The notes under the pieces: model-generated | Told to the model about the DNA's origin: nothing | Database searches by the model: none | The model's input: only the letters and a program-made list of their open reading frames with translations | Part shown: in pieces, positions 41,123 to 63,907 of the stretch | Numbering within the stretch: the first letter of the stretch is position 1 | Layout of the letters: every line of letters begins with the position of its first letter | Program-made: the position numbers and the translations under genes | Source of the DNA: Arenibacter sp. P308M17 | Lineage (GTDB): Bacteria; Bacteroidota; Bacteroidia; Flavobacteriales; Flavobacteriaceae | Direction of reading: 5' to 3' | Assembly: GCF_003426735.1 (NCBI RefSeq) | Contig: NZ_QVON01000002.1 | Span: 744,001-808,000 of the forward strand | DNA length: 64,000 nt

Positions 41123-41166
41123 CTGACGGATATCATATTTTACCCAAAAAGAAGAAACTAGATTTG
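41123..41166 (+). promoter_or_regulatory. CRP/FNR-type site and -7 box for the PNPOx-like gene
   Basis: CTGAC-GGAT-ATCAT (41123-41136) is centred at 41129.5. The -7 box TAGATTTG, an exact TAnnTTTG match, starts at 41159, 29.5 bp away. Confidence 0.8.
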
Positions 41167-41247
41167 ATTCAATTGAAAGATTGAAGATTTTAAAAAAGCA
41201 TTCCATAAAAAGAAAGCCAAGGGGGTTTCTTGACCATTAAAAGACAT

Positions 41248-41700
41248 ATGACAGATTTAACCGTTCACGAAAGCATTCGCCTACTCAAGGATAACTATAT
41301 TGGCCACTTGGGATATATTTCCCAGCATCTGCCTTATGTAATTCCTATTACCTATTACTATGACAAGGAAGATAATTCCCTTATAAGTTATTCGGCAGAC
41401 GGCCATAAGATCGATGCCATGCGCAAGAATACTGCCGTGACATTATTGGTTGAGGAAATAAAATCGTCCTACAACTGGCAATCGGTTATGGTCCATGGCA
41501 CCTATGAGGAACTTCAGGGTCCGGATGCCAAGTTTAAATTGCACCAGTTTACAGAAGGGGTCAAGGACATTATCCTTCGGAAAGAGAAAAGGGAAACCGA
41601 ATATATAAGTGAGTTTTCCAGCAAATTGTATTCTCGTGGTAATCCAACCGTATACCGTATCAAAATATTGGAGATTACTGGAAAAAGAAAAGAGACCTAG
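41248..41700 (+). CDS. Pyridoxamine-5'-phosphate-oxidase-like flavin-binding protein
   Basis: A 150-residue protein of the PNPOx-like split-barrel family: LTVHESIRLLKDNYIGHLGYISQHLPYVIPITYYYD, SYSADGHKIDAMRKNTAVTLLVEEI and NWQSVMVHGTYEEL. These proteins bind FMN, F420 or heme and are often stress-related; true PNPOx activity is unlikely. ATG 41248 is chosen; an in-frame TTG at 41230, six codons upstream and preceded by AAGGGGG, is an alternative. It carries one of the best examples of the shared island promoter and is followed 102 bp later by ppsA, which may be read from the same promoter. Confidence 0.85.
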   Translation: MTDLTVHESIRLLKDNYIGHLGYISQHLPYVIPITYYYDKEDNSLISYSADGHKIDAMRKNTAVTLLVEEIKSSYNWQSVMVHGTYEELQGPDAKFKLHQFTEGVKDIILRKEKRETEYISEFSSKLYSRGNPTVYRIKILEITGKRKET

Positions 41701-41802
41701 AAGCGAAATCTACAAGGTTGGTTCCCCTAATTTTTCCAGCTTATAGCCATTGGCCTTACATCTCCAAAGTACCTGATCCAATAACCAATTAATGTATAGG
41801 AG

Positions 41803-44211
41803 ATGATAAACTACATAAAACACTTTAACGAAATAGACATTGGCAATGTCCAAGAAGTAGGAGGCAAAAATGCCTCATTGGGTGAAATGTATCAAAAGCT
41901 GACCTCCAAGGGAATACAAGTTCCCGACGGATTCGCCACTACCACTGAGGCCTATTGGCTCTTTCTTAAGGAGGCCAAGTTATTGGATTTCATTTTCGGA
42001 GAAATTGAAAAATTGGACAAAGAGGATTTTTCAAATCTAAGGGAAGTGGGATCGGCCATAAGGCAAGAAATTGCACAGGCAGAATTTCCTGAAGCCATTA
42101 AAAATTCAGTGGCAAACGGATATAATGCCCTTGTAAAAAAATATGGCAATGAAATTTCCCTAGCGGTCAGAAGTAGCGCTACGGCAGAAGATCTTCCCAA
42201 TGCCAGCTTTGCAGGACAGCAAGAAACCTATCTCAACGTAAAGGGCATCGATGGGCTAATTGCTGCCTGCCACAAATGTTACGCCTCCCTATTTACGGAT
42301 AGGGCCATAAAATACAGGGAAGACAATCACTTTGACCAGACAAAGGTGGCCCTATCCATAGGCGTACAGTTAATGGTACGCTCGGATTTGGCCAGTTCCG
42401 GCGTAAATTTCACCTTGGATCCCGATACCGGATTTGATAAGGTAGTTCTTGTTTCCAGTATTTGGGGTCTAGGTGAAAATATAGTTCAGGGCAGTGTAAA
42501 TCCCGACGAATACTTCGTTTATAAACCCAGTCTAAAAAATAGCATTCGCCAACCCATCATTTCAAGAAAACTGGGCAGCAAGGAAAAAACCATGATCTAT
42601 GATAGCTCTGGTAGCGGTACCCTTAACCTCGACACCAAAATAGAAAAACAAGAAAAATTTGTACTTACAGATGCAGAAGTAGTAAAACTTGCCAACTGGT
42701 CCATCATCATTGAAGAACATTATGGACGTCCAATGGATATAGAATGGGCCAAGGATGGATTGACCAATGAATTGTTTATAGTCCAGGCCAGACCGGAGAC
42801 GGTGCAAAGTGCAAAAAAGGATAAACTTAAAATTAGTACCTATTCCTTAATTGATAAAGGCAAGGAAATTACCAGGGGAATGGGTCTGGGCAATAAAATA
42901 GCCGCTGGCAAAGCACGGATTATCCATAGCCCCCTAGAATCCTATAAGTTACGACCTGGAGAAATTCTTATAACGGAAAAGACCGATCCCGATTGGGACC
43001 CTATCCTTAAAAAGGCTGCCGGCATCATTACGGACCAAGGAGGACGTACCAGTCATGCCGCCATTGTTGCCCGTGAAGTTGGTGCTGCGGCCATAGTTGG
43101 TACCCTCAATGCCACTAAAACCATTACGGATGGCCAGCAAATTACCATTTCCTGTGCGGATGGTGACACCGGGGTCGTCTACGACGGAATACTGAAATGG
43201 GATGAAAAAACAGTGGATACCAAATCCCTTAAAAAACCTGCAACCCAACCCATGCTCATTTTGGCAGATCCTGAGCAGGCATTTAAACTATCGTTCTACC
43301 CCTCGGCCGGGGTGGGCCTGATGCGATTGGAATTCGTTATCAACAATTCCATACAAATCCATCCTATGGCCTTAAAACATTTTGACAATTTAAAGGATAC
43401 TTCTGTCAGAACACTTATTGAAAAACTTACCAATCACTACCCGGACAAGGCAGATTATTTTGTGCACAAGCTGGCAGAGGGCATTGCTACCATCGCGGCC
43501 GCATTCCACCCCAAAGATGTTATAGTGCGTACCAGTGATTTTAAATCCAACGAATACGCCAACCTCATCGGAGGCAAAGAATTTGAGCCAGTGGAATCCA
43601 ACCCCATGATAGGATTTCGGGGAGCCTCACGCTACTATCATCCCAAATACCAGGAGGCCTTTGAACTGGAATGTAAAGCTTTGAAAATGGTCAGGGAGGA
43701 TATGGGTCTGAATAATGTTAAGATTATGATTCCTTTCTGCCGTACCCTTAAAGAGGCTGAAAAAGTAGTAGCCCTTATGGCCCATTACGGGTTGAAAAGG
43801 GGAGAAAACGGCCTAGAGCTATTTATGATGACCGAGATACCCAATAATGTTATTTTGGCCGAAGAGTTTTCACGTTTTTTTGATGGCTTTTCAATAGGCT
43901 CCAACGACCTTACCCAATTGACCCTGGGAGTGGATCGGGACTCCGAACTACTGGGCGATATTTTTGACACCAATGATCCGGGAGTAAAAAAAATGATAGC
44001 GATGGTCATTGCCTCCGCCCATAAAACGAATACAAAAATTGGTCTTTGCGGACAAGCCCCGAGCGACTATCCAGAATTTGCCCAATTCCTCGTGGAAGCT
44101 GGAATTAACTCCATTTCCTTCAATCCCGATGCACTCATTGAAGGCATCAGGAATATAAATATGGCAGAACAAAGTAAGATCAGTTTCGGAATGGCCGAAA
44201 GTAGTAATTAA
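41803..44211 (+). CDS. ppsA: Phosphoenolpyruvate synthase
   Basis: An 802-residue enzyme converting pyruvate, ATP and water to PEP, AMP and phosphate (reversible in principle). The N-terminal ATP-grasp domain starts VGGKNASLGEMYQKL and has AVRSSATAEDLPNASFAGQQETYLN. The central swivelling domain carries the phospho-histidine in GGRTSHAAIVAREVG. The C-terminal barrel has VGLMRLEF, MIGFRGASRY, FSIGSNDLTQLTLGVDRDS and GLCGQAPSD with its catalytic Cys. Normal length. It lies in a run with the PNPOx-like gene, PfkB kinase and glucokinase, all plus strand. Confidence 0.95.
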   Translation: MINYIKHFNEIDIGNVQEVGGKNASLGEMYQKLTSKGIQVPDGFATTTEAYWLFLKEAKLLDFIFGEIEKLDKEDFSNLREVGSAIRQEIAQAEFPEAIKNSVANGYNALVKKYGNEISLAVRSSATAEDLPNASFAGQQETYLNVKGIDGLIAACHKCYASLFTDRAIKYREDNHFDQTKVALSIGVQLMVRSDLASSGVNFTLDPDTGFDKVVLVSSIWGLGENIVQGSVNPDEYFVYKPSLKNSIRQPIISRKLGSKEKTMIYDSSGSGTLNLDTKIEKQEKFVLTDAEVVKLANWSIIIEEHYGRPMDIEWAKDGLTNELFIVQARPETVQSAKKDKLKISTYSLIDKGKEITRGMGLGNKIAAGKARIIHSPLESYKLRPGEILITEKTDPDWDPILKKAAGIITDQGGRTSHAAIVAREVGAAAIVGTLNATKTITDGQQITISCADGDTGVVYDGILKWDEKTVDTKSLKKPATQPMLILADPEQAFKLSFYPSAGVGLMRLEFVINNSIQIHPMALKHFDNLKDTSVRTLIEKLTNHYPDKADYFVHKLAEGIATIAAAFHPKDVIVRTSDFKSNEYANLIGGKEFEPVESNPMIGFRGASRYYHPKYQEAFELECKALKMVREDMGLNNVKIMIPFCRTLKEAEKVVALMAHYGLKRGENGLELFMMTEIPNNVILAEEFSRFFDGFSIGSNDLTQLTLGVDRDSELLGDIFDTNDPGVKKMIAMVIASAHKTNTKIGLCGQAPSDYPEFAQFLVEAGINSISFNPDALIEGIRNINMAEQSKISFGMAESSN

Positions 44212-44448
44212 GGAGGGAAAAAAGAATTATGGAAACGGACCGTCCAATGGGCATCGCCCCTTTCGAAAGGCACGGGCGGACCTAAAGCTACCCGCCCGAC
44301 AAGGCCGTTCTGGCAGATTTCGCATTACCGATAGCTCCTACCCACATCGGCACCCTGATAGGCAACCGGGGGCGCCCCAACTTAAAGGACCAATTACGGT
44401 CCAGATCTAAAATCATTAAGCGGTGAACAATCATAAATTTCAACAAGG
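44212..44448. other. GC-rich intergenic region
   Basis: 237 bp between ppsA and the PfkB gene. It contains GC-rich inverted segments (CGGGCGG/CCGCCCG near 44274-44310) like the REP-type elements elsewhere. No gene and no island-type TGAY-N4-RTCA site. Confidence 0.45.
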
Positions 44449-45560: not shown

Positions 45561-46637
45561 ATGAAAAATTTCACAAAATTCCCATTATCGGCCATACATG
45601 AAGGAAAAATTCCGTTGGCCCTGATGAACGCTGGCCAACCCAACAACAAAGGTGTAGTCTTGGCTGCCGATGTGGGGGGTACAAAAACCAATTTGGCCCT
45701 TTTTGAAATCAAGTCGGGAGATCTGGTAGTCCTAAAGGAAAAATCCTATCCCACCAAGAAATATAAATCCTTTTTAGAAATAGTAAAGGCTTTCCAAACC
45801 CCCGCAATGCCCAGAATAAATGCAATCTGCCTGGGTGTTGCCGGACCAGTAACCCAAGGTAAGGTATATGGTACCAATTTTCCTTGGGCCATTGATAGGG
45901 AAGAAATAAGCCGGGAACTGCATATACGTTATGTTTCGCTTATCAATGATATGGAAGCAAATGCCTATGGGCTGGCGGTGCTCCAAGAAAAAGACTTTGA
46001 AACCCTAAAATACGGATCAAAAATACCGGGCAACGTCGCTTTAATATCTCCTGGTACAGGGCTTGGGGAAGCTGGCATGTTCTGGGATGGATCGTACTAC
46101 CATCCATTTGCCTGCGAGGGCGGTCATTGTGATTTTAGCCCCCGAAATGAAACGGACATAAAAATCTTACGGCACCTCCAACAAAAATACGGACATGTTA
46201 GCTGGGAAAGGTTGGTATCCGGTCCCGGCATCTTGGATCTATATTCCTTCAATCGGGCAGAAAGTAGCGAAACGGAACCGCAGTGGTTGAGGGATAAGAT
46301 GGCGCAGAACGATCCTTCCGCCGTAATAACAGAGACCGCTCTTGCCGGAAAAGATCCGGTCTGTATGGCCACATTGAATCTTTTTATTCGATTCCTGGCC
46401 ATAGAATCGGCACAGCTTGCCCTAAAATTTAAGGCTACCGGGGGTATTTATATAGGTGGGGGCATCTTGCCAAAAATTATCCAAGGCATGAAAAAGGAAG
46501 TTTTTTATAATAATTTCGTACAGTCCGGAAGACTGAACCCCCTCCTTGAAATGGTACCTGTAAAAGTAATCCTTAATGAAAAAACAGCGCTTCTGGGAGC
46601 TGCCTATTATGGGGCCATGGCCTTGCGATGGGATTAA
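45561..46637 (+). CDS. glk: Glucokinase
   Basis: A 358-residue ATP-dependent glucokinase of the E. coli Glk type. The phosphate-binding motif AADVGGTKTNLALFE is preceded by about 30 extra residues. The catalytic region ICLGVAGPV, TNFPWAIDREEI, LINDMEANAYGL is followed by SPGTGLGEAGM and CEGGHCDFSPRNE, whose EGGH is the glucose-binding motif. It makes glucose-6-phosphate from free glucose, as released by the debranching and GH63-like enzymes. The start at 45561 is the first ATG with any space; a start closer to the domain is possible. An 11-bp tandem array begins 62 bp after the stop. Confidence 0.92.
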   Translation: MKNFTKFPLSAIHEGKIPLALMNAGQPNNKGVVLAADVGGTKTNLALFEIKSGDLVVLKEKSYPTKKYKSFLEIVKAFQTPAMPRINAICLGVAGPVTQGKVYGTNFPWAIDREEISRELHIRYVSLINDMEANAYGLAVLQEKDFETLKYGSKIPGNVALISPGTGLGEAGMFWDGSYYHPFACEGGHCDFSPRNETDIKILRHLQQKYGHVSWERLVSGPGILDLYSFNRAESSETEPQWLRDKMAQNDPSAVITETALAGKDPVCMATLNLFIRFLAIESAQLALKFKATGGIYIGGGILPKIIQGMKKEVFYNNFVQSGRLNPLLEMVPVKVILNEKTALLGAAYYGAMALRWD

Positions 46638-46699
46638 GGCGGATTAATCTCAAAAGTGGTGTGTGAATAGGAATAAGATAGAATTTACCATTCCAAACT

Positions 46700-46842
46700 C
46701 CATAGATAGTCCATAGATAGTCCATAGATAGTCCATAGTTAGTCCATAGATAGTCCATAGATAGTCCATAGTTAGTCCATAGATACTCCATAGATAGTCC
46801 ATAGTTAGTCCATAGATAGTCCATAGTTAGTCCATAGTTAGT
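46700..46842. repeat. 11-bp minisatellite, 13 units
   Basis: Thirteen contiguous units of CCATAGATAGT or CCATAGTTAGT (one CCATAGATACT), without interruption. The two main variants alternate irregularly. The array lies between the convergent glk and usp genes. Because 11 is not a multiple of 3, each frame gives an 11-residue peptide repeat; this is an artefact. No spacer sequences. Confidence 0.9.
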
Positions 46843-47004: not shown

Positions 47005-47865
47005 TTAAAAATATAAGGTCTGGTGATTGTGCTCATTAAAGCTGATCAGGATTACCTGTCCATATTCCTCCATTCTCTTTACAAGGTCATTATGGAACCA
47101 TTTATTGGAAAATCCTTTCCTTTCCCTTTCCAACATGGCCACAACATCTGCATTTACCTCGCCTAGATAGCCTTGGAGTGTGCTAAATACATCTTCCGAG
47201 AACAAAAGTTCAAAGGCCAAATCCTGGTAGTCTACCTTGGAATGAAGCATTTCCTTGAACCATTCCATCAACAAATCCCCGGCATATTCTTGCTTGGCTG
47301 AAATATGCACTACTTTAATCTTTGCCTTTAAGGGTTGGGTTATTTCCAGAAGCTTTTGGATAGCATGTATATCTTCCTCTTCAAAATCCGTGGCGTAGAC
47401 TATGGTGCGGATCGTCCTAGGCTTCATATCCATAGGAATTGCCACTACCGGACATGGCGCTTTTTCTATGAGCTTCTTGGTAGTACTTCCCAAAATCATT
47501 TCTTCAATACCACTTTTTCCTTTGGTTCCCACCAAAATCAATTGCGCCCTATATTCTTCCGCCTTTGAAATAATCCCATTTGGCACCGAATTGTGCTGTA
47601 CAGGTTCCAATAGGATGTTGGGACTTTCCCACTTGCTCCCAAGGCATTCATTACAGAATTTTTCCAACTCCGATCGGTGCAGTTTAAACGGATTTATTTC
47701 CAGAAGCGGCCTTACATCAAGGCCTTCCATACCCAATACCTTAGGGTAATTAAAAACATGGGTAATAACCAACCGTGTACCCAAATCCCGACTCAAACTA
47801 TAGGCCGACTGCAAAGCGGAAACCGAACTTTTGGAATAATCCGTGGCATAAAGAAGTGCTTTCAT
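47005..47865 (-). CDS. Universal stress protein, tandem UspA domains
   Basis: A 286-residue cytoplasmic protein with two Usp domains (about 1-142 and 150-280). The first carries the ATP-binding pattern G-x2-G-x9-GS in GTKGKSGIEEMILGSTTKKL followed by APCPVVAIP. In the second the pattern is not kept (DVVAMLERERKGFSNKWF), so only one ATP site is expected. Usp proteins support survival under starvation or anoxia. The divergent intergenic region to pta contains an island-type CRP/FNR site directed towards usp. Confidence 0.92.
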   Translation of the reverse strand: MKALLYATDYSKSSVSALQSAYSLSRDLGTRLVITHVFNYPKVLGMEGLDVRPLLEINPFKLHRSELEKFCNECLGSKWESPNILLEPVQHNSVPNGIISKAEEYRAQLILVGTKGKSGIEEMILGSTTKKLIEKAPCPVVAIPMDMKPRTIRTIVYATDFEEEDIHAIQKLLEITQPLKAKIKVVHISAKQEYAGDLLMEWFKEMLHSKVDYQDLAFELLFSEDVFSTLQGYLGEVNADVVAMLERERKGFSNKWFHNDLVKRMEEYGQVILISFNEHNHQTLYF

Positions 47866-47959: not shown

Positions 47960-48003
47960 TAAAATTAAGGGCTATTGTGGTATCCATAAATGACTTCTAT
48001 CAT
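47960..48003 (-). promoter_or_regulatory. CRP/FNR-type site and -7 box for usp
   Basis: On the minus strand, ATGAT-AGAA-GTCAT (48003-47990), centred at 47996.5. The -7 box TAATTTTA begins at 47967, 29.5 bp away and identical to the boxes of three other island promoters. The leader is about 90 nt. No -7 box stands at the matching distance towards pta. Confidence 0.75.
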
Positions 48004-51912: not shown

Positions 51913-51956
51913 ATGATATAAGTCATTTTAGGGGCCCATGTATTTAAATAATTTTA
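51913..51956 (+). promoter_or_regulatory. CRP/FNR-type site and -7 box for small paralogue A
   Basis: ATGAT-ATAA-GTCAT (51913-51926), centred at 51919.5. The -7 box TAATTTTA starts at 51949, 29.5 bp away. A weaker TTACTTTG lies at the same distance on the minus strand (51890-51883), towards the DUF2892 gene. Confidence 0.8.
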
Positions 51957-54036: not shown

Positions 54037-54110
54037 CCAATTTAAGAACTTAAGCTTGTAATGGATATGATTTATATCATTTACAAATCATTTTAATAGG
54101 TTTATTTTTG
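54037..54110. promoter_or_regulatory. Bidirectional CRP/FNR-type promoter (paralogue B and ytxH operon)
   Basis: ATGAT-TTAT-ATCAT (54067-54080, perfect arms), centred at 54073.5. Towards ytxH, TATTTTTG (exact TAnnTTTG) starts at 54103; towards paralogue B, TAAATTGG (one mismatch) starts at 54044 on the minus strand. Both are 29.5 bp from the centre. Confidence 0.8.
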
Positions 54111-54154: not shown

Positions 54155-54484
54155 ATGACAAACAATAATGGAAATATTCTTTTGGCTTTATTGACAGGGG
54201 CTGCCATAGGTGCAGGAATAGGGATTCTGTACGCTCCCGACAAGGGAACGGAGACCAGGCATAAAATAAAGCAAAAAGTAGGGGAGACTACGCACGATCT
54301 GTCCGAAAGAATCTCCCATGCCAAGGAAGAACTTACCAAAACGGCCATTGAGAAAAAAGATGCCTTTGACCGCAAACTGGATGAGGCCATATCCACAATG
54401 AGCTATAAGGCGGATGATATCATCTCCACCCTGGAGCGCAAATTGGAAGACTTAAAAAAGAAAAACGCCCAATTTCAAAAATAA
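54155..54484 (+). CDS. YtxH-domain protein
   Basis: A 109-residue protein with one N-terminal glycine-rich transmembrane segment (ILLALLTGAAIGAGIGILYAPDKGTETR), the hallmark of YtxH/gas-vesicle-associated small proteins, followed by a long charged amphipathic helix (KIKQKVGETTHDLSERISHAKEELTK). YtxH proteins are general-stress membrane proteins in other bacteria (for example SigB-controlled in Bacillus), without known biochemistry. First gene of a three-gene operon under the island promoter. Confidence 0.88.
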   Translation: MTNNNGNILLALLTGAAIGAGIGILYAPDKGTETRHKIKQKVGETTHDLSERISHAKEELTKTAIEKKDAFDRKLDEAISTMSYKADDIISTLERKLEDLKKKNAQFQK

Positions 54485-54490: not shown

Positions 54491-54835
54491 ATGGCCTTGG
54501 AAGCACTTAAGAGAGACCTTACCGGGGCCGAGGCCGACGTAAGGTCTTATCTGGAAAATAGCGAGGAGTATGCCAAGCTTAAAATATTTAAGATACTCAT
54601 GGAGCTTGTGACCGCCTTTGCACAAACCCTACTTATAGGGGCTATGCTTTTATTGGCCATGCTCCTATTGTCCTGGGCAGCGGCTAATGCCCTGAACGAG
54701 GCGTTGGAAAGTCATTGCTTAGGATTTTTAATAATAGGTTTAGGCTATATGTTTGTAGCTATGCTTTGTTTTTTTCTTAGGGATAGACTAAATGGGCCAA
54801 TACTACGCACATTTTCCAAACATTATTTTGATTAA
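54491..54835 (+). CDS. Phage-holin-family-like membrane protein
   Basis: A 114-residue protein with an amphipathic N-terminal helix and two transmembrane helices (about 38-66 FAQTLLIGAMLLLAMLLLSWAA, and 79-97 GFLIIGLGYMFVAMLCFFL). This resembles the so-called phage holin (Holin-X-like) family that is common in chromosomal stress clusters. There is no phage context here, so lysis is not implied. It starts 6 bp after the YtxH gene and is followed by a 72-residue gene after 4 bp. Confidence 0.75.
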   Translation: MALEALKRDLTGAEADVRSYLENSEEYAKLKIFKILMELVTAFAQTLLIGAMLLLAMLLLSWAAANALNEALESHCLGFLIIGLGYMFVAMLCFFLRDRLNGPILRTFSKHYFD

Positions 54836-54839
54836 GATT

Positions 54840-55058
54840 ATGGGGAAGCAGTACAGTTCTTTTAAAGAGATTGATGAAAGACTAAAGATCTTGAAATTAC
54901 ATCGTAAAATTGAAATTGAAAGCCTTAAACTTAATATCCATCAGGTAAAGACATATTTTGGACCACAGTATTTGGCAGGGAACCTTAAGGGCAACATTCA
55001 ACAAATGTTGTTGGTCTTTGCCATAAGGAAACTCAAGGCCATATTTAACAGAAGGTAG
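54840..55058 (+). CDS. 72-residue basic protein, third gene of ytxH operon
   Basis: A basic helical protein (SSFKEIDERLKILKLHRKIEIESLKLNIHQVK) with a weakly hydrophobic tail (NIQQMLLVFAIRKLKAIFNRR). The open frame starts earlier, at 54792 inside the holin-like gene, but ATG 54840 follows that stop by 4 bp and gives the sensible N-terminus. I recognise no family, though small proteins of this type follow YtxH/holin pairs in other Flavobacteriia. Probable membrane-associated partner. Confidence 0.65.
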   Translation: MGKQYSSFKEIDERLKILKLHRKIEIESLKLNIHQVKTYFGPQYLAGNLKGNIQQMLLVFAIRKLKAIFNRR

Positions 55059-55096: not shown

Positions 55097-56164
55097 CTAA
55101 AAATCCGCTACCTCCCTAAGGCCCTTTTCATTTATAATAAGGATCCTTCTTCCGTGGTCTGTGGCAATGAGGCCTTCGTCCTTGAAATCGGATAAGGTGC
55201 GGATTGCGGTTTCGGTTGCGGTACCGATCATCCCTGCAAAATCCTCCCGTGGAATTCCTATTCCACCATTGGGCCTGTCCTGTACAACATGTTTGTCATA
55301 AAGTTCCAACAGGGCCTTTGCCGCCCTCTGCCTTACCGACGCAAAGGCCATATCCACCAATTGTTCCTGTAAGTGCATTAGATTATTGGATATCATTCCA
55401 ATAAATTTTTGGGAAACCACCGAATTGCCATATAACAATTTCGTAAAATCTTCCCTAGGAATGGCACAGATCCGGGCATCCTCCATAGCAGTGGCATTTT
55501 CTATATAAGACTTATTTGAATTCAACATCGACATTTGCCCAATAAAATCTCCGGGACCAAAAATACCTGTCACAAATTCCTTTCCGGATTCAGTGCTTTT
55601 ATACGTCTTTACACTTCCCTTCTCAATAAAATATAAGGAATGTGCATTATCTCCTTCCCAATAAATAATTTCTTTTTTACTGTAATCCTTAAGGGTGTAA
55701 TTCTTGGATAGGTTTTTAAGATCACTGTATTGGGAGGCTTCGTCCAAAAATTTGTGTATCCCTTCCATGTTTTTGGCTATCTCTGCCTTAAGAAAATCAC
55801 TTTTACGCAATCGTGAGGCAACGGCATCCAACAATTCCTTTTCTTCAAAGGGTTTGGTCAAATAATCGTCCGCCCCTAAATTCATTCCCAACCTCACTTC
55901 CGACCTATCCGTCTTTGCCGTTAAAAATATAAGGGGAATACCAGATGTGGCACCGCTCTTTCCCAAAGCTTCCAAGACCCCGTAACCATCCAGTTCGGGC
56001 ATCATAATATCACATATTACCAGGTCCGGCCCAAATCGTTTTGCCAGGTCTACCCCTATCCTTCCATTCTCGGCCGCCAATACTTGGTAATTGGCCAACT
56101 CCAAAATATCCTTTGTATTTTCCCTAACATCCTTGTTGTCCTCAATTAATAGAATTTTTTTCAT
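55097..56164 (-). CDS. Response regulator with CRP/FNR-type DNA-binding module (REC-CRP)
   Basis: A 355-residue fusion. The receiver domain (1-120) has the acidic pair E8/D9, phosphoacceptor D52 (VICDIMMPELDG) and K104 (TKPF). A cyclic-nucleotide-binding-like fold (about 155-270) follows, with FIGQMSML where CRP has GELALL and without the cAMP-binding Arg, so cAMP is unlikely as ligand. The C-terminal winged helix (about 275-350) has a recognition helix with E318-x3-R322, as in CRP and FNR, which read TGA half-sites. It has no N-terminal Fe-S cysteines. Its start overlaps the end of the kinase gene by 23 nt. It is the prime candidate for the TGAY-N4-RTCA activator. Confidence 0.93.
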   Translation of the reverse strand: MKKILLIEDNKDVRENTKDILELANYQVLAAENGRIGVDLAKRFGPDLVICDIMMPELDGYGVLEALGKSGATSGIPLIFLTAKTDRSEVRLGMNLGADDYLTKPFEEKELLDAVASRLRKSDFLKAEIAKNMEGIHKFLDEASQYSDLKNLSKNYTLKDYSKKEIIYWEGDNAHSLYFIEKGSVKTYKSTESGKEFVTGIFGPGDFIGQMSMLNSNKSYIENATAMEDARICAIPREDFTKLLYGNSVVSQKFIGMISNNLMHLQEQLVDMAFASVRQRAAKALLELYDKHVVQDRPNGGIGIPREDFAGMIGTATETAIRTLSDFKDEGLIATDHGRRILIINEKGLREVADF

Positions 56165-58895
56165 ATTCGCTTTTATTAACGGGAATCCTTAAGCTAAAGG
56201 TACTACCATTCCCCAGTTTACTTTTAAACCTTATACTACCACCGAGAAGCCCCGTGTAATGTTTTACTATATGAAGTCCAAGGCCGGTCCCTTGGAAATT
56301 GGTGGCATTTTCTGCACGAAAAAACCGAGTGAACAACTTTTTCCGATCTGCCTTCGGGATGCCTATTCCCTGATCATTAATATGAATGGTTACCTCTTTT
56401 TCATTTGCCTCTACCACCATTCCTATAATTTGTCCCTCCATAGAGTACTTAATGGCATTGGAAAGTAAATTAATAATAATATGGTTCAATAGTTTGGGAT
56501 CAAGATTAACCCATATAGAGGGGTCGGAATGATCAAAAATAATGACCTGCCCCTCTTTTTTGATAGGTTCCATCTCATCGACCAACATTTTTATAAATTG
56601 TATTAATTCAAAAGACTGGGCCATTACCTGTACCTTACCCTCTTCCAACTTGCTCAAGGACAGAAAATCGTTAAGGATAACAACAAGATCCTTGACATTG
56701 GTCCTTATCCTGGAGACATGTTTCATTCTCCGTTCCTCTTTGCCCGGCTCGTTTTGTTTTCCTATCAGGATGGCCGAAGAAAGAATGGCGCTCAAGGGCG
56801 TACGGAATTCATGGGAGGCCATGGAAATAAAACGGGATTTGAGTTCATTAAGCTCCTTTTCCACTTTAACGGTCTTTTCCAATTCATACTGTATCTTCTT
56901 CTGTTTGCTAACATTATTGTAAACAAATAGGGCCCACATTATTTTATTTTGATCGGAATAGAGTGGTGTGGAATTCACGGCATAACTTTGATCCTGAAAA
57001 TCTACCTCAAAAGAAATATTGGCCCCTTTCAATGTCCTTCTAATATCCGACTTTATTTTTGTGATCTGCCGTCTGGAAAAAATAGGAATGTTGTCTATGG
57101 GAAGTCCCTCAACACTGGACTTGTTGAGATGTATCCAGTCCATTTCCTTTCCTTCCACATAGACCAATTCAAAATCCGTATTAAAGACCATGATAACACC
57201 ATTGGGAAAATTATGGGCAATAGCCGTAAACAACGCCCTACTGAGACTTGCCTTCCTTTGGGCCCTTTGCGTCTCTAATATTTGATCTTCCAGGCTTAAA
57301 TTGGTCGATACCAGTTTTTGTACCGTAATTTGAACTTCCCTTGTCCGTTCCTCCACCTTATCTTCCAAGGCCTGGGCATATATCTCCAGTTTTTTCTTGG
57401 CCTCCTGAATTTCGGTAACATCGTTCAGAACCCCAATGAAATGGGTTAATTTCTGACCGTTATCATACAGGGGGGTAATAGACAGGTCATTCCAAAAAAG
57501 GGTGCCATCCTTTCGGTAATTTCGAACCAATGCCCTACAGGGGGTACCGTGACCAATTGCTTTGGACATGAAAGCGATTTCAGGCTGATTACTATCCCCC
57601 TTCTGCAAGAATCTACAATTTTTCCCAAGAACTTCATGGGATTCATACCCGGTAATTTGGGTAAAGGCCTTATTCGTATATAGAATGGGAAGTTCGGGAT
57701 GTTGGGCATCCACTATGATAATCCCGTTCCCAACAGCTTCCATGGCCCTGTTTCTTATTCTCAAGGTCTCCTGTGTCAATTTGTTTTCAGTGACATCCAA
57801 TCCAGAACTTACGACCCCTATAATTTCATTGTTTCCATTCCTTAGGGCAGCATTGCTCCATTGAATTAGGCGCTTCTGCCCACCTTTGGCAATAACATGG
57901 TTTTCGTGAAAGTTGGGTAGGTTTAATTTATCCGCAAAAATAGATTCAAACAATTCGATAAGTTGATTTTTGTTCTTTTTGGGTATAAATTCTGTAAACC
58001 AGTTTTTGTTCAAGATAGCATTTTGATCAAGTCCCAATATATCGCAGGTACTTTTATTTACCAATTGAACGGTGTAGTCCTTATCAATGGCCAAAAACAT
58101 GGAAGGGGAAGTATCCATATATTGACGGAGCAATTCTTTTTCCTTGACCAGTGCATTTTCAATCGTCCTAAGATCCGTTACATCCTGAATAAAGCCTTCC
58201 CGCCTGATGGGAGTATTGGTATTGTCCACAACAAAGTTACCCTGCTCCCAGATCCACTTTATTTCCTTATTGGAGGTCATTATCCTATAGGAAAGCTGAT
58301 AGCCTCCTTTTCCCTTAACGGCCATGGCAAGCCCATCCATCACCTTTGGTAAATCTTCAGGGTAGATCAGGTTTTCCCAATAGAGTTCGGAATCGTCATA
58401 AAATTGTTGGGATGAATAACCACAAATGGTCTGGCAATTCTCGCTGATAAACTCCATATAATAGGGTCTATTTGGCATACAGCTATAGACTATCCCTGCA
58501 ACATTGGACACCAAAGTCCGAAACTTTCTATCACTTTCAAAAACGGAAGTATCCGCCGGTTTACAATAAATTGAATATAGAATTTGCCCTTTTAAAACTG
58601 TTGGGGCACACCTAATATCCAATGGAAAATGAATTCCATTTTTTTTAAGGCCAAAAAGCGGAATTGGCGCTACCCTATTTTTCTTGGATCGGGTGGTCTC
58701 TACCTTTTTCTTCCAATCGGGGACGATTATTTGCATATTCATATTGGTCAATTCTCCAGTACTGAAACCGAAAAGATTTTCCATTGCACGGTTTGCAGCA
58801 AGAATAGCCCCAAGTTCATCGATTACCAACAATCCGTCCAAAGAAACATCAAAACTGACTTGCAAAAGATCGTTATTTGTTATTCTGCCGTTCAT
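56142..58895 (-). CDS. Multi-PAS/LOV sensor histidine kinase
   Basis: A 917-residue protein from ATG 58895 (a GTG at 58964 would add 23). Several PAS domains in tandem are followed by HisKA (H695 in ASHEFRTPLSAIL) and an HATPase domain (N813, D841 in NDQGIGIP, GTGLGL). No transmembrane segment, so it is cytoplasmic. The PAS domain at about 379-495 is LOV-like: GKNCRFLQ with the photoactive Cys at 427, FMN-contacting N459 (RNYRKDG) and N469 (FWND), but the usual Gln of the GVQxDVT strand is Leu490 and the second phosphate-binding Arg is missing. It forms an operon with the REC-CRP gene and is preceded by an island-type site, implying autoregulation. Confidence 0.93.
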   Translation of the reverse strand: MNGRITNNDLLQVSFDVSLDGLLVIDELGAILAANRAMENLFGFSTGELTNMNMQIIVPDWKKKVETTRSKKNRVAPIPLFGLKKNGIHFPLDIRCAPTVLKGQILYSIYCKPADTSVFESDRKFRTLVSNVAGIVYSCMPNRPYYMEFISENCQTICGYSSQQFYDDSELYWENLIYPEDLPKVMDGLAMAVKGKGGYQLSYRIMTSNKEIKWIWEQGNFVVDNTNTPIRREGFIQDVTDLRTIENALVKEKELLRQYMDTSPSMFLAIDKDYTVQLVNKSTCDILGLDQNAILNKNWFTEFIPKKNKNQLIELFESIFADKLNLPNFHENHVIAKGGQKRLIQWSNAALRNGNNEIIGVVSSGLDVTENKLTQETLRIRNRAMEAVGNGIIIVDAQHPELPILYTNKAFTQITGYESHEVLGKNCRFLQKGDSNQPEIAFMSKAIGHGTPCRALVRNYRKDGTLFWNDLSITPLYDNGQKLTHFIGVLNDVTEIQEAKKKLEIYAQALEDKVEERTREVQITVQKLVSTNLSLEDQILETQRAQRKASLSRALFTAIAHNFPNGVIMVFNTDFELVYVEGKEMDWIHLNKSSVEGLPIDNIPIFSRRQITKIKSDIRRTLKGANISFEVDFQDQSYAVNSTPLYSDQNKIMWALFVYNNVSKQKKIQYELEKTVKVEKELNELKSRFISMASHEFRTPLSAILSSAILIGKQNEPGKEERRMKHVSRIRTNVKDLVVILNDFLSLSKLEEGKVQVMAQSFELIQFIKMLVDEMEPIKKEGQVIIFDHSDPSIWVNLDPKLLNHIIINLLSNAIKYSMEGQIIGMVVEANEKEVTIHINDQGIGIPKADRKKLFTRFFRAENATNFQGTGLGLHIVKHYTGLLGGSIRFKSKLGNGSTFSLRIPVNKSEYEKNSIN

Positions 58896-59015
58896 TGCTG
58901 ATGATGGATTTAACCAAAAATTGTTTTCCCAAAAAGAAAAAGGGCCGATTGGAGGTATTGGCACTGGTAAACCTATTCTATTGCAAGTATTTCAACCCAT
59001 TCCCACTAAGTCCAG

Positions 59016-59059
59016 CAAATGTATTGGTATCCTCCTCTGTAAGAAATGACATCCGTCAT
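59016..59059 (-). promoter_or_regulatory. CRP/FNR-type site and -7 box of the kinase/regulator operon
   Basis: ATGAC-ATCC-GTCAT (59046-59059, perfect arms), centred at 59052.5. On the minus strand TACATTTG, an exact TAnnTTTG match, begins at 59023, 29.5 bp away. This indicates autoregulation of the operon. Confidence 0.82.
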
Positions 59060-59089: not shown

Positions 59090-59133
59090 CTGATAAAGGT
59101 CATATGACCATTTCCCTGTATATAATAATTTTG
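59090..59133 (+). promoter_or_regulatory. CRP/FNR-type site and -7 box for the patatin gene
   Basis: CTGAT-AAAG-GTCAT (59090-59103), centred at 59096.5. TAATTTTG, an exact TAnnTTTG match, starts at 59126, 29.5 bp away. This rules out the upstream ATG at 59104 as the start and supports ATG 59158. Confidence 0.82.
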
Positions 59134-59157
59134 AATCAAATTTTAAATAAAATACAT

Positions 59158-59991
59158 ATGACAACAGGCCTCGTCCTATCCGGTGGTGGTATTCGCGGGG
59201 TTGCCCATATTGGGGCCATTAAGGCCATGCAAGAATATGGCATTTCACCTTCCCATATTGCCGGGACCAGTGCAGGGGCCATAGTAGGAGCCCTTTATGC
59301 CGCTGGCCGTACCTGGGAAGAAATGTTGGATTTTTTTAAAGCAACGCAGATTTTCAGTATAAACAATTATGCCAAGGGAAAACCAGGTTTTTTGGATACG
59401 GAAAAGTTCTATGATCAATTTAAATCCTACTTGCGCCATGATTCCTTTGAAGCTTTGGAGATCCCTCTTTATATAACGGCAACCAACTTACTGGACGGGA
59501 CACTGAAGGTATTTGATAGTGGTGAACTTATTCAACCAATATTGGCATCGTCTGCCGTTCCAGGATTATTTGCACCCGTACAGATCAAGAATGGCTATTA
59601 TGTAGATGGCGGTACCCTGAACAATTTTCCGGTAGACCTTATTAAACAGATCTGTAACAAGATCATTGGAGTATATGTAAACCCTTTCAACAGTGTTAAA
59701 ATAGAGGAGTTGAATCACGTGACCAAGGTTTTGGAAAGGACCTATCATGTAATGATGGCCAATAAGGCCAACCTTAAATTCAACGATTGCGATTTATTGA
59801 TAAGGCCTCTGAATATGGATAGATATAGTATGTTCAGCTTAAAAAATTTGGACAATATTTTCAATTTGGGGTATGCCGCTGCCCAGGATATCTTAAAAAT
59901 CAGCCCTCTTGCCACTGAATTACTTCAGGCAGCAGAATTGGAAGCCATGAATGGTTTTTCAATGGATACTTCCGTTATAGACTCCCATTAA
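59158..59991 (+). CDS. Patatin-like phospholipase
   Basis: A 278-residue serine lipid hydrolase of the bacterial patatin (RssA-like) type. The oxyanion hole GGGIRGVAHIG (9-19), nucleophile S38 in GTSAG and the second dyad residue D150 in YVDGGTLNNFP are all present. It has no signal peptide, so it is cytoplasmic or inner-membrane-associated. It would release fatty acids from phospholipids or other acyl esters; the substrate is unknown. The start is set at ATG 59158 because the first ATG of the open frame (59104) lies upstream of the -7 box. Confidence 0.9.
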   Translation: MTTGLVLSGGGIRGVAHIGAIKAMQEYGISPSHIAGTSAGAIVGALYAAGRTWEEMLDFFKATQIFSINNYAKGKPGFLDTEKFYDQFKSYLRHDSFEALEIPLYITATNLLDGTLKVFDSGELIQPILASSAVPGLFAPVQIKNGYYVDGGTLNNFPVDLIKQICNKIIGVYVNPFNSVKIEELNHVTKVLERTYHVMMANKANLKFNDCDLLIRPLNMDRYSMFSLKNLDNIFNLGYAAAQDILKISPLATELLQAAELEAMNGFSMDTSVIDSH

Positions 59992-60221: not shown

Positions 60222-60686
60222 CTATCCGATAAGTATTTTCTTAGGGGGCATTTTTTTTGCCTCTTCTTTTTTTGATAGATTAAAGCTCAAAATACCATCC
60301 TTGTATGCTGCCTTAATGGCTTCCTGCTTAACGGAATCCGGTAACTGTAAAGAACGTTGAAAGGAATTATAACTAAACTCCCTACGGGTATAGTCGTCCT
60401 CCTTATCCTCTTTGGATTCGGACTTCTCTGCTGCAATATTTAAACAACCATCATCAATGGTAACCTCAAAATCCTTCTTTTGAAATCCGGGAGCGGCCAG
60501 TTCGATCTCAAAATGGTCATCGGTTTCTTTAATGTTCAATGCAGGTTCCATTCTCTTTCCGTTCCAGAAACGATCGGGCAACATATCCCTGACCCATCTA
60601 CGGTTATCAAAAAAATCGTCCATGTCAAAAAAATCCTGGGACATTAAATTGCCAAATGGCCTACTTTTAAATTTTACTAGTGTCAT
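60222..60686 (-). CDS. Hsp20/alpha-crystallin small heat-shock protein
   Basis: A 154-residue ATP-independent holdase. The alpha-crystallin domain (about 48-140) includes PALNIKETDDHFEIELAAPGF, KKDFEVTIDDGCLNIAAEKS, YNSFQRSLQLPDSV and KAAYKDGILSFNLSKKEE (the A-x-x-x-x-G-x-L motif as YKDGILSF). A C-terminal tail with KILIG gives the I-x-I oligomerisation motif. It is divergent from the P-type ATPase; both face the single site at 60755-60768. The mycobacterial counterpart HspX is the hallmark of the DosR regulon. Confidence 0.95.
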   Translation of the reverse strand: MTLVKFKSRPFGNLMSQDFFDMDDFFDNRRWVRDMLPDRFWNGKRMEPALNIKETDDHFEIELAAPGFQKKDFEVTIDDGCLNIAAEKSESKEDKEDDYTRREFSYNSFQRSLQLPDSVKQEAIKAAYKDGILSFNLSKKEEAKKMPPKKILIG

Positions 60687-60724
60687 AATATCTTATTTTT
60701 AAGGGTTACATATTTATTATGCTT

Positions 60725-60798
60725 CTAAAGTACATCCAACTGTGTTTGTACAAAATGATTTAGGTCAGTCCCACAAATTTTCTTTACATTTAATTTTA
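60725..60798. promoter_or_regulatory. Bidirectional CRP/FNR-type promoter (hsp20 and P-type ATPase)
   Basis: ATGAT-TTAG-GTCAG (60755-60768), centred at 60761.5. Towards the ATPase, TAATTTTA starts at 60791; towards hsp20, TACTTTAG starts at 60732 on the minus strand. Both are 29.5 bp from the centre, a mirror-symmetric arrangement. Confidence 0.8.
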
Positions 60799-60910
60799 CG
60801 ATATCCAATAACAGCATCACAACAATATTTTTCCCTGTCCAATATTGGGATAACAAGTGCGGTCCGATTTTTAAGACAGGGAACAGTTCATTTTTTTATT
60901 TCAGGTCCCT

Positions 60911-63415
60911 ATGATCAATCCAACCGATTTTGGCATTCACGGGCTTTCCGATGAAGCCGTAGAACAATCCAGAGAAAAGCACGGAGAAAATAGCCTTAGC
61001 TATAAAAGTAACAATGGTTTTTTGGAAGCTTTAAAAAGTATCGCCCAAGAACCTATGGTCATCTTATTGATAGTAGCCACCTCCATTTACTTTATTACAG
61101 GAAATAACGGGGATGGCATATTTATGGCCTCCGCGATTATCCTGGTAGCCTCAATTTCCCTTTACCAGGATTCCAAAAGCAGGATGGCCTTGGAGAAATT
61201 AAAAGACCTTACCCAACCCAATAGTCAGGTCATCCGAAACGGTGTAATCAAAGAAATTCCCAGTGAGGAATTGGTGGTAGGCGATAGCCTTATGATAGAA
61301 GAGGGCAATACCATTCCCGCAGATGGTACCATAGTACATTCCAACGATTTTTCGGTTAACGAATCCATACTCACAGGTGAGTCGCTTTCCGTTTTTAAGG
61401 ATGCTACCAAATTGGACAATAAAATATATAGTGGCACTACGGTAGCAAGCGGATTGGCCATTGCAACCATCACCGGGATCGGCAACGAAACCCGATTGGG
61501 TAAAATTGGAAAAAGCCTTGAAGGTATACAGGACGAAAAGACACCACTGGAAAGACAGATTTCCGGTTTCGTTAAAAGCATGTCCCTGTGGGGCGGCATT
61601 ATTTTCCTATTGGTTTGGGGAATTAATTATTTTCAGTCCAAGGAAGTTTTGGATAGTCTGCTCAAAGCCCTCACCTTGGCCATGAGTATCCTGCCCGAAG
61701 AGATCCCCGTGGCATTCACCACCTTTATGGCCCTGGGTGCCTTTAGGTTGATGAAAATGGGTGTCGTGGTAAAACATATGAAAACTGTGGAATCCCTGGG
61801 AAGCGCTACGGTGATATGTGCCGATAAAACCGGTACCCTTACCCAAAACAAAATGGAACTCGCCAAACTTTATAGCCTAGAAACGGGAGAGATAGTTGTC
61901 CCCGACGGTCCACTCAATGCCTCCTTGAAACAACTGCTGACAATGGCCATGTGGGCCAGCGAACCCATACCTTTTGACCCTATGGAAAAGGCACTTCACA
62001 ATGCCTATGGCAACATGGTTACAGAAGACCGGAGGCCCCAATTTAAAATGGTGCACGAATATCCGCTAAGCGGGAAACCTCCAATGATGACACATCTGTT
62101 CGAAAATAATGAAGGCGAGCGTATTATCGCCTCCAAAGGGGCCCCAGAGGCCATTATGGCGGTTTCCATATTAACGGATGCCCAAAAAAATAGAATCAAG
62201 GACATATTGACTCAATTGGGGCAGGAAGGATACCGTATGTTAGGGGTGGGACAAGCCCATTTTAAAGGATACGATTATCCTCAAAAACAGCAGGACTTTA
62301 AGTTTTCGTTCATTGGAATAGTAGCCTTTTATGATCCCCCGAAGAAAAACATCTCCAAGGTCCTAAAAGAATTTGATGGGGCGGGAATCAAAGTGAAATT
62401 GGTTACGGGGGACAACCCCACAACTTCCATGGCAATTTGTAAACAAATACATTTTCCCGGATATGAAAAAAACATGACCGGGGATCAACTCATGCAATTA
62501 AGCGATGCAGAATTGCAACAAAAAGTTATGGATACGCAAGTCTTTACGCGTATGTTTCCCGAAGCCAAATTAAGAATAGTCAATGCCATTAAGGCGAATA
62601 ACGAAGTGGTTGCCATGACAGGCGACGGGGTCAATGACGGTCCGGCACTGAAAGCCTCCCATATTGGTATAGCCATGGGCAAGAAGGGGACGGAAATTGC
62701 CAAGCAGGCCGCCTCCCTGATCCTGCTAGACGACGACCTGTCCAAAATGGTCGATGCCATTGCCATGGGCAGAAAGATTTATAATAACTTAAAAAAGGCC
62801 ATCCAGTATATTATATCCATTCATATCCCTATTATATTAACGGTGTTTATCCCCTTGGCCCTAGGATGGGCCTATCCTTCAATTTTTTCACCTTCCCATG
62901 TTATTTTACTGGAATTGATAATGGGGCCCACCTGCTCCATCATCTATGAAAACGAGCCCCTGGAGAAAAATGCGATGATTAAAAAACCAAGGCCGTTCAC
63001 CACTACATTTTTTAAGTTCAAGGAATTGATAACCAGTATCGTTCAGGGACTGGTGATTACCTTAGGGGCTTTATCGGTATATCAATACGCCGTTTTCCAG
63101 GATTATAACGAAACCATCACCAGGACTATGGTATTCATGGTTTTGATCTCCGCCAATATTTTTCTGACCTTGGTCAACCGCTCCTTCTATTATTCCCTAT
63201 GGACAACCATTAAATATAGGAACAATTTGGTGCCATTGATCATCGGTATTACCTTGGCATTGGTTATCCTATTGCTCTTTGTACCTCCTCTTACCAGATT
63301 TTTTCAATTCGAAACCTTAAAAGGGCATCAACTGGGGATTTCCGTCCTTGCTGGTATGTTATCCGTTCTTTGGTATGAAATCGTGAAAGGAATAAAACGT
63401 GCCAGAAAAGAATAA
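60911..63415 (+). CDS. P-type cation-transporting ATPase (P2-like)
   Basis: An 834-residue inner-membrane pump. Motifs: N-terminal cation-ATPase domain, TGES (155-158) of the actuator, PEEIP (262-266) in M4, phosphorylation site D305 (CADKTGTLTQNK), KGAPE (409-413) of the nucleotide domain and TGDGVNDGPALKASHIGIAMG (hinge). Overall it is closest to the P2A/CtpF-like calcium-type pumps. In M6, LLELIMGPTCSIIYENEP replaces the usual Asn-Asp-rich calcium-ligand stretch, so the ion is uncertain. CtpF of mycobacteria is in the DosR regulon, a parallel to this regulated copy. Confidence 0.92.
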   Translation: MINPTDFGIHGLSDEAVEQSREKHGENSLSYKSNNGFLEALKSIAQEPMVILLIVATSIYFITGNNGDGIFMASAIILVASISLYQDSKSRMALEKLKDLTQPNSQVIRNGVIKEIPSEELVVGDSLMIEEGNTIPADGTIVHSNDFSVNESILTGESLSVFKDATKLDNKIYSGTTVASGLAIATITGIGNETRLGKIGKSLEGIQDEKTPLERQISGFVKSMSLWGGIIFLLVWGINYFQSKEVLDSLLKALTLAMSILPEEIPVAFTTFMALGAFRLMKMGVVVKHMKTVESLGSATVICADKTGTLTQNKMELAKLYSLETGEIVVPDGPLNASLKQLLTMAMWASEPIPFDPMEKALHNAYGNMVTEDRRPQFKMVHEYPLSGKPPMMTHLFENNEGERIIASKGAPEAIMAVSILTDAQKNRIKDILTQLGQEGYRMLGVGQAHFKGYDYPQKQQDFKFSFIGIVAFYDPPKKNISKVLKEFDGAGIKVKLVTGDNPTTSMAICKQIHFPGYEKNMTGDQLMQLSDAELQQKVMDTQVFTRMFPEAKLRIVNAIKANNEVVAMTGDGVNDGPALKASHIGIAMGKKGTEIAKQAASLILLDDDLSKMVDAIAMGRKIYNNLKKAIQYIISIHIPIILTVFIPLALGWAYPSIFSPSHVILLELIMGPTCSIIYENEPLEKNAMIKKPRPFTTTFFKFKELITSIVQGLVITLGALSVYQYAVFQDYNETITRTMVFMVLISANIFLTLVNRSFYYSLWTTIKYRNNLVPLIIGITLALVILLLFVPPLTRFFQFETLKGHQLGISVLAGMLSVLWYEIVKGIKRARKE

Positions 63416-63442
63416 AAATTCTTTTCTAATCGAGAACAAATC

Positions 63443-63841
63443 CTACATAAGGCTTCCCAAGTATTCGAATACATTTGTTTTGTAATCATTGAAATCCTTA
63501 TAATGCTCCTCGAACCGGTCTTTTAGCTCTTTATGGCTATCCAGATAATAAGTGTCGCAATTAATTTCCTCACACTCCAAAATTCCTTTTAACTCATCCC
63601 CGTATTGTTCTATCGCTTTTTTGAAGGCATGTGTTTCCTTAGTTTTGGTTTCCATTTCTCCCTTGAATTGCTGCAAATGCTCAAAAAGATTAGGGGTGTT
63701 TCCCTTAAAAGTATTTGAGTTCAATAATCGGGTAATGAATTGTATTTCGTTTTCCATATATCCAATCATCAATTTCCACCATTCGGCTTCACGGTGGAAG
63801 GCCGAAAATTCTTCTTCCTGTGTGTTCTGTTCGCTGGGCAT
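63443..63841 (-). CDS. Small helical protein, paralogue C of an unrecognised family
   Basis: A 132-residue helical protein related to those at 51994 and 53605: HREAEWWKLMIGYMENEIQF with ITRLLN, a central HAFKKAIEQYGDELKGIL, and a C-terminal DRFEEHYKDFNDYKTNVFEYL. The open frame continues to the window edge, adding a hydrophobic stretch, but ATG 63841 gives the same length as the paralogues and lies 23 bp after the -7-like box, whereas the extension would run through the CRP/FNR-type site. No catalytic motif is seen. An alternative membrane-anchored form cannot be excluded from this window. Confidence 0.75.
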   Translation of the reverse strand: MPSEQNTQEEEFSAFHREAEWWKLMIGYMENEIQFITRLLNSNTFKGNTPNLFEHLQQFKGEMETKTKETHAFKKAIEQYGDELKGILECEEINCDTYYLDSHKELKDRFEEHYKDFNDYKTNVFEYLGSLM

Positions 63842-63863
63842 TTTATTATATTTTAATATGGAA

Positions 63864-63907
63864 GAAAGATAATTCCACCAGCGAATTATAACAATGACCA
63901 TTATCAG
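63864..63907 (-). promoter_or_regulatory. CRP/FNR-type site and -7-like box for paralogue C
   Basis: ATGAC-CATT-ATCAG (63894-63907), centred at 63900.5. On the minus strand TATCTTTC begins at 63871, 29.5 bp away, one mismatch to TAnnTTTG. Confidence 0.72.

Follow-up and report, generated by a model that had tools for sequence, protein, structure and literature searches.

Class II activators of the CRP/FNR family are established to act from a site centred at −41.5. In the E. coli-type FNR/CRP systems, the recognition helix carries an E..R motif and the targets include genes such as hemN and those of the cbb3 oxidase. In the rhizobial FixLJ-FixK2 cascade, a PAS kinase acts through a CRP/FNR regulator on micro-oxic genes, including the cbb3 oxidase. 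The output of the alphaproteobacterial general stress response is PhyR together with a sigma factor, and the mycobacterial DosR, a LuxR-type response regulator, has a regulon of Hsp20, universal stress proteins, PfkB and a P-type ATPase. Here we describe a stretch of 64,000 nucleotides (hereafter, the window) from Arenibacter sp. P308M17 of the Flavobacteriaceae (contig NZ_QVON01000002.1, positions 744,001 to 808,000), in which nine operators of CRP/FNR type stand at one fixed distance from promoter boxes, mostly within a stress island. We propose, with a probability of about 0.78, that these operators belong to a family-wide class II regulon read by an FNR-like protein and by response regulators that join a receiver to a CRP/FNR output (REC-CRPs), the island being mainly under its neighbouring REC-CRP A.

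Passages of one earlier study (PMC1274295) describe the FNR box TTGATnnnnATCAA and the HcpR palindrome TTGACnnnnGTCAA, HcpR and DNR-type proteins without the FNR Cys motif, and a predicted control of hcp only by HcpR2 in most Bacteroides. The HcpR, DNR and NnrR regulons, as presented in these passages, resemble the present case in the CRP/FNR family of the regulator and in their FNR-like palindromes, but the outer T/A of their boxes is absent from the operators described here. According to parts of PMC4438053, a LOV histidine kinase feeds the alphaproteobacterial general stress response. The CRP/FNR homologues of one Flavobacteriales genome are interpreted as carbon sensing in passages of PMC8510549, which differs from our reading.

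The sequence TGAY-N4-RTCA, a two-fold TGA-N6-TCA palindrome of CRP/FNR type, is found 11 times in the window, and nine copies (at 5843, 41124, 47991, 51914, 54068, 59047, 59091, 60756 and 63895, 1-based) are accompanied by a promoter box, which is an exact TAnnTTTG in four cases, TAATTTTA in four and TATCTTTC at 63895. A preliminary description of this DNA had listed the same nine sites, each numbered one base lower, and had quoted the same boxes. The remaining palindromes, at 57454 and 63165, lie within open reading frames (ORFs) and have no box. By itself the palindrome (mean 3.6, and up to 13, in 200 dinucleotide shuffles of the window) is not rare enough to impress; its fixed distance to the box is. 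When offsets from 0 to 59 were scanned on both sides, boxes with at most one mismatch were found in 13 of 22 site-directions at offset 23, where the site centre lies 29.5 bp from the box start, and every other offset gave two boxes at most. At offset 23 the 200 shuffles gave a mean of 0.105 boxes and a maximum of 2, confirming the earlier claim that the constant distance is not random. Four sites (5843, 51914, 54068 and 60756) are flanked on either side by a box that deviates at no more than one position. In passages of a start-site study of Flavobacterium psychrophilum (PMC9723704), the TAnnTTTG box occupies −12 to −5; for a box that begins at −12, the distance of 29.5 bp brings the site centre to −41.5. 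On this box position, borrowed from F. psychrophilum, the sites are at the class II position, as had been proposed for a CRP/FNR-type operator.

The same architecture recurs over the genome. Using a strict pattern (operator, 23 bases, TAnnTTT) and its reversal as control, we found 33 matches against 2 in the 5.04-Mb genome. A scan with free gap (9-39, TGAT half only, one match per start) listed 40 matches, among which, counted by eye, gap 23 was represented 18 times, gap 17 five times and gap 24 three times; two of the gap-17 rows are the window sites 54068 and 60756, which also have a box at gap 23. Outside the window lie 23 of the 33 strict matches; in mechanical gene calls, nine of them precede an ORF start by 13-22 bases, and others have longer leaders or uncertain ORF starts. 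One match (C21:50143) sits inside an ORF without a plausible gene behind it, so that chance may account for a few of the 33. Among the genes behind the outside sites are oxygen-independent hemN, ccoNO of the cbb3 oxidase, thioredoxin, copper nitrite reductase, nadA, several universal stress proteins (two by Pfam, others by eye) and the fnr-like gene itself (site C1:764743, gene start 764809; G000:C1:764809-765492, L032). In the stretch L037 (12577-19442), several usp-like genes are clustered beside the kinase and REC-CRP of the second pair, and the operator recurs there with the fixed spacing. The copper nitrite reductase (L041, 1747-3207), behind its operator, is fused to a cytochrome c domain.

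Among 149 genera of the family, the strict pattern was detected 2506 times, against 178 times for the reversed control and 383 times for a pattern one bp shorter; the count of the shorter pattern exceeds that of the reversed one, so that a distance of 28.5 bp is perhaps in occasional use. Regulators were scored as present at hand-chosen thresholds (E <=1e-50 for the FNR-like protein, E <=1e-60 for REC-CRP), by which two borderline genomes, G018 and G040 (FNR E of 3e-42 and 4e-48; 2 and 3 sites), were counted as lacking FNR. The mean number of sites per genome was 28.9 where both regulator types are present (43 genomes), 17.7 with REC-CRP only (31 genomes), 12.6 with FNR only (53 genomes) and 2.1 with neither (22 genomes; reversed control 1.0), the reversed-control means lying between 1.0 and 1.4 across the four classes. 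Sites are thus frequent in the company of either regulator type or both, and fall close to the background where both types are missing. Chance as the origin of the site-plus-box pattern was rejected on the offset scan together with the genome and family counts, and the pattern is real and far stronger than the preliminary description could show. Beyond the family, where the regulator search covered the FNR-like protein only, mean site numbers were 10.7 against 2.0 reversed in the same order (3 genomes), 5.8 against 0.67 in the same class (30 genomes) and 1.3 against 0.39 in the same phylum (179 genomes); the reach past the family is weak and the excess falls off with distance.

The sites of the island are also conserved. 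Around REC-CRP A in other genera, 11 stretches were compared, and a fixed-distance site was present at 25 of 47 orthologues of the site genes; in the comparison sets, it preceded 3 of 34 further named genes and 21 of 116 ORFs without a name (p = 1.2e-6). The site was kept at YtxH in 7/7 cases, the kinase in 6/11, patatin in 5/9, Hsp20 in 3/8, Usp in 2/2, the P-type ATPase in 1/2 and the first small paralogue in 1/2. It was not seen at orthologues of the second small paralogue (0/3), PNPOx (0/2) and CbpA (0/1), few of which were examined. The conservation expected by the preliminary description therefore stands for the set as a whole and was not seen for these three genes in the few orthologues compared.

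The preliminary description had assigned all sites to one activator. Six HTH_Crp_2 matches are present in the genome, five of them above the cut-off, and by eye a recognition helix of the form GxATExxIRxxSxFK is common to three proteins: REC-CRP A of the island, REC-CRP B, encoded about 19 kb away next to its own PAS kinase and a usp cluster, and the FNR-like protein. The other CRP-type genes of the genome were rejected as sources of the regulator, their recognition helices being different by eye. Both REC-CRPs unite a receiver, a cNMP-binding fold and HTH_Crp_2 in one protein, and the phospho-acceptor Asp is invariant in 26 of 26 parsed REC-CRPs (30 fetched; a text filter dropped 4 of 30 loci each for FNR and REC-CRP, and the FNR Cys count was redone on 80/80). 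REC-CRP A has no CxxC start, and its one Cys near the place of Cys 106 is seen in 5 of 26 REC-CRPs (by eye). In the FNR-like protein, Cys 4, 7, 53 and 106 are invariant in 80/80 relatives; in an alignment with solved FNR, Cys 4, 7 and 106 coincide with Cys residues of that protein, Asn stands in place of its other ligand, and Cys 53 is extra. Three of the four canonical iron-sulphur (Fe-S) cysteines of FNR are thus aligned, and a swap of the fourth ligand to Cys 53 is plausible. A profile of 20 FNR-like relatives matched solved FNR (5cvr/5e44) with E 1.2e-26, the best NCBIfam model was Fnr (NF008365; 102.2 bits, under the cut-off of 228), and the protein is 79-93% identical to those in 11 Arenibacter records among the matches listed. 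The fnr gene has a fixed-distance site upstream in 54 of 80 loci and a site within 420 bp downstream in 76 of 80. From its sequence, the FNR-like protein is a probable Fe-S oxygen sensor. The assumption of one activator is not supported: the recognition helices of three regulators are almost identical, the regulon extends over the genome to genes of micro-oxic respiration, and both FNR-only and REC-CRP-only genomes keep the sites.

The sensor kinase (56142..58964, minus strand), with several PAS-type domains and HisKA/HATPase, forms one operon with REC-CRP A (55097..56164, minus strand; receiver, cNMP-binding fold and HTH_Crp_2 by Pfam). It contains a LOV domain with the motif GKNCRFLQ, matching GxNCRFLQ with its adduct Cys, and is similar to solved LOV domains in the PDB (E down to 9.4e-34). 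This domain was overlooked in the preliminary description. In a genus sample of 16 genomes (own included), the kinase is nearly full length in nine, and all nine keep the LOV Cys. The conserved C-terminal Gln plays a role in the flavin pocket of LOV domains; at this position Leu is found in 6/9 kinases of the genus, that of the window included, and Gln in 3/9. Among the kinases of the 11 other genera with REC-CRP A, seven have the LOV motif and four gave no match. The kinase partner of REC-CRP A is probably a blue-light sensor. A PAS domain of haem type was also considered for the kinases and set aside, no convincing His match to FixL being seen by eye.

On these grounds, the nine sites would belong to a class II activator regulon that extends over the whole genome and over the Flavobacteriaceae at large, in which a dimer of the CRP/FNR family is predicted to bind [A/C]TGAY-N4-RTCA[T/G] centred at −41.5 and to substitute for the −33 element next to the housekeeping TAnnTTTG box. 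Two kinds of reader are envisaged, the one-component FNR-like protein with its CxxC and two further invariant Cys, presumably responding to oxygen, and the kinase-driven REC-CRPs, presumably responding to phosphorylation and in part to light. For the island, the most likely driver would be REC-CRP A next to it, whose phosphorylation would come from the PAS/LOV kinase encoded with it in one autoregulated operon; for the hemN, ccoNO and fnr promoters it would be FNR. The preliminary interpretation was correct in kind, including its assignment of the island to the regulon, and is probably also correct on the island's own regulator, the regulon as a whole probably being shared by an FNR variant and two REC-CRPs.

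How the readers divide the sites was approached through the operators themselves. Outer bases [A/C] and [T/G] are present in nearly all of them, and the outer T...A of the FNR box is seen in 0/20 half-sites in the window (ten site-directions, nine palindromes), 2/46 elsewhere in the genome and 0/432 near FNR genes. The core A-N2-T is found in 183 of 216 sites near FNR genes against 9 of 54 in REC-CRP-A islands (15/32 against 7/48 by unique 12-mers; a REC-CRP-B stretch, L195, was excluded from the island counts), and within this genome in 0/9 window palindromes against 11/22 elsewhere (p = 0.012). That none of the nine has the A-N2-T core points to the adjoining REC-CRP A as the probable driver of the island, in support of the local REC-CRP favoured by the preliminary description. 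Sites with neither the A nor the T average 9.5 in REC-CRP-A genomes with FNR and 7.25 in those without (medians 9 and 6.5), 5.4 and 4.2 in REC-CRP-B genomes with and without FNR (medians 4 and 2), 2.2 in FNR-only genomes (median 2) and 1.0 with neither regulator. As a clean discriminator between FNR and REC-CRP the core succeeded only in part: FNR and REC-CRP B are not told apart by it, A-N2-T sites being as common in genomes with only the one as in those with only the other, and the sites of the other class having a median of 2 in each. The island sites appear to resemble REC-CRP-A sites, and the distinction is a graded one.

A survey of targets included 11 genomes, chosen since their sites had been listed, and the stretches around part of the sites of each. 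A hemN and/or ccoNO gene lies behind a site in 6/6 FNR-only and 5/5 REC-CRP-only genomes, and usp-like genes (25-49% identity to those of the window genome) in 4/6 and 5/5, respectively; in both classes, proteins resembling by eye what we take to be ribosome hibernation factors are also encoded behind sites. Either kind of regulator alone therefore appears to maintain the core promoters hemN, ccoNO and usp. The REC-CRP-only genomes of this survey were the only ones with patatin, Hsp20, P-type ATPase, TerB-like or small-paralogue genes behind the sites covered, and one FNR-only genome was the only one with a nirK-like gene.

If the FNR-like protein alone read all sites, with the REC-CRPs binding elsewhere or acting as cofactors, the island would be an ordinary oxygen regulon. 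Such a scheme accommodates hemN, ccoNO and nirK, classic FNR-type targets, behind the sites, as well as the mean of 12.6 sites retained by FNR-only genomes, but it is improbable in view of the 31 genomes which lack the FNR-like protein by our threshold and yet keep a mean of 17.7 sites, with hemN and/or ccoNO among the targets of all five REC-CRP-only genomes examined, and of the A-N2-T core, dominant near fnr yet absent from the window palindromes. A more serious competitor, to which we still give only about a third of the credence of our own reading, is that each site is bound equally well by all three regulators, in competition or in cooperation, the output being set by whichever protein is active, with no specialist for the island. 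The common recognition helix, the sufficiency of one regulator type for the core targets and the equal frequency of A-N2-T sites in FNR-only and REC-CRP-B-only genomes agree with equal binding. The difference in core between the window and the rest of the genome, and between the regulator classes, does not, nor does the restriction of patatin, Hsp20, P-type ATPase, small-paralogue and TerB-like targets to REC-CRP-only genomes in the survey, which covered part of the sites. The sites might also be repressor operators, a CRP/FNR protein at −41.5 blocking the polymerase. Position alone is compatible with this, and nothing points to repression specifically; −41.5 is the position of class II activators, and passages of PMC9723704 describe an increase of cbb3 oxidase and haem synthesis in F. 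psychrophilum when oxygen is low, which is what activation would predict, so that we regard repression as very improbable.

Several observations weigh against the shared regulon with REC-CRP A as island driver, which we nevertheless prefer. Sites are missing from 22 of the 47 orthologues of site genes, and little or no excess of sites is found in 7 of 53 FNR-only genomes. The A-N2-T contrast leans on redundant close relatives and is smaller by unique 12-mers, and such sites are no rarer in REC-CRP-B-only genomes (4.74) than in FNR-only genomes (4.45). The genomes are phylogenetically non-independent, the co-occurrence means being given without correction for kinship, and many of those that lack both regulators are small. 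Size by itself does not account for the missing sites, since the eight neither-regulator genomes of about 3 Mb or more are near the control as well, with 21 sites against 15 reversed in total.

Within the window, the outlying operator TGACTTTAATCA (5843..5854) is directed both ways, with a box on the plus strand (5878-5885) toward a cbpA-like dnaJ gene (ORF 6010-6903, plus strand; DnaJ by Pfam) and another on the minus strand (5812-5819) toward a trxB-like ORF (4375-5343, minus strand; Pyr_redox_2 by Pfam), the start codon of which is about 460 bp off. The operator TGACGGATATCA (41124..41135, plus strand; box TAGATTTG, 41159-41166) precedes the gene of a pyridoxamine-phosphate-oxidase-like protein (PNPOx, 41230..41700, plus strand; Pfam PF12900), and TGATAGAAGTCA on the minus strand (47991..48002; box TAATTTTA, 47960-47967) precedes that of a universal stress protein (usp, 47005..47865, minus strand; PF00582). 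Small paralogue 1 (51994-52380) follows TGATATAAGTCA (51914..51925, plus strand; box TAATTTTA, 51949-51956). From TGATTTATATCA (54068..54079), directed both ways, the box TATTTTTG (54103-54110, plus strand) leads to the ytxH operon, in which the YtxH-like gene (54155..54484, plus strand; PF12732) is followed by ORFs at 54491-54835, with a holin-like match under the family cut-off, and 54792-55058; the weak box TAAATTGG (54037-54044, minus strand) leads to small paralogue 2 (53605-54000).

The kinase/REC-CRP operon has its operator TGACGGATGTCA on the minus strand (59047..59058; box TACATTTG, 59016-59023), close to TGATAAAGGTCA (59091..59102, plus strand; box TAATTTTG, 59126-59133), which faces patatin (ORF 59104-59991, plus strand, with ATG 59158 as likely start; PF01734). 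The operator TGATTTAGGTCA (60756..60767) again serves both directions, with box TAATTTTA (60791-60798, plus strand) toward a cation-transporting P-type ATPase (60911..63415, plus strand; PF00122 and PF00689) and box TACTTTAG (60725-60732, minus strand) toward the small heat-shock protein Hsp20 (60222..60686, minus strand; PF00011). Lastly, TGATAATGGTCA on the minus strand (63895..63906; box TATCTTTC, 63864-63871) precedes small paralogue 3 (ORF 63443-64000, minus strand, ATG 63841 as likely start). The small proteins 51994-52380, 53605-54000 and 63443-63841 and one on another contig (L046:3025-3486) are mutually related; a Pfam search of the three in the window gave no match, a strict operator lies upstream in 4 of 9 members of the family tested, and members are also found behind sites in a REC-CRP-only genome (G124). 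Short tandem repeats encoding MDYLWTNYGL- or MAYGLWL-like runs were noticed by eye in the ORF lists at 46573-46824 of the window and at L037 12342-12554.

Among the described systems, E. coli-type class II promoters resemble the present ones in a dimeric regulator of CRP/FNR fold with an E..R recognition helix, in the −41.5 centre and in targets such as hemN and the cbb3 oxidase, but here the box is the Bacteroidota TAnnTTTG, the outer base is unlike that of the FNR box, the third N-terminal Cys of FNR is absent with Cys 53 invariant instead, and the operator is shared with REC-CRP regulators. Unlike FixLJ-FixK2, receiver and CRP/FNR output are joined in one protein, predicted to bind promoters directly, and the kinase has a LOV domain and no demonstrated haem. 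Where alphaproteobacterial LOV kinases feed a sigma-factor pathway, the predicted output here is a REC-CRP activator. The likeness to the DosR dormancy regulon is one of gene content only, regulator type and operators being different. In the main text of PMC6365647 the terms Crp, cNMP and LOV are absent; FNR and CRP are absent from that of PMC9723704, whose passages on low oxygen leave the regulator unnamed. Searches of open-licence papers listed no title or abstract beginning on this operator, on REC-CRPs of the family or on their sharing of sites with FNR.

Taken together, the survey suggests that an oxygen-sensor-type protein and kinase-driven regulators read the same switch and can replace each other. 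A wider proposal, which we hold tentatively and at somewhat less than even odds, is that an FNR variant and phosphorylated, partly blue-light-gated REC-CRPs, acting on one class of −41.5 operators, replace a stress sigma factor in the low-oxygen and general stress response of the Flavobacteriaceae; the two types would be evolutionarily exchangeable, REC-CRP having taken over the cbb3/hemN regulon from FNR in 31 of the 149 genera. For the low-oxygen response of this large marine family, the findings provide an operator open to testing, its exact spacing from the box and candidates for the proteins that read it, and the rule of operator, 23 bases and TAnnTTT permits prediction of the regulon from sequence alone. 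A probable blue-light sensor becomes tied to a stress regulon, and the family offers a natural case of apparent substitution between a one-component sensor and a two-component regulator at the same promoters.

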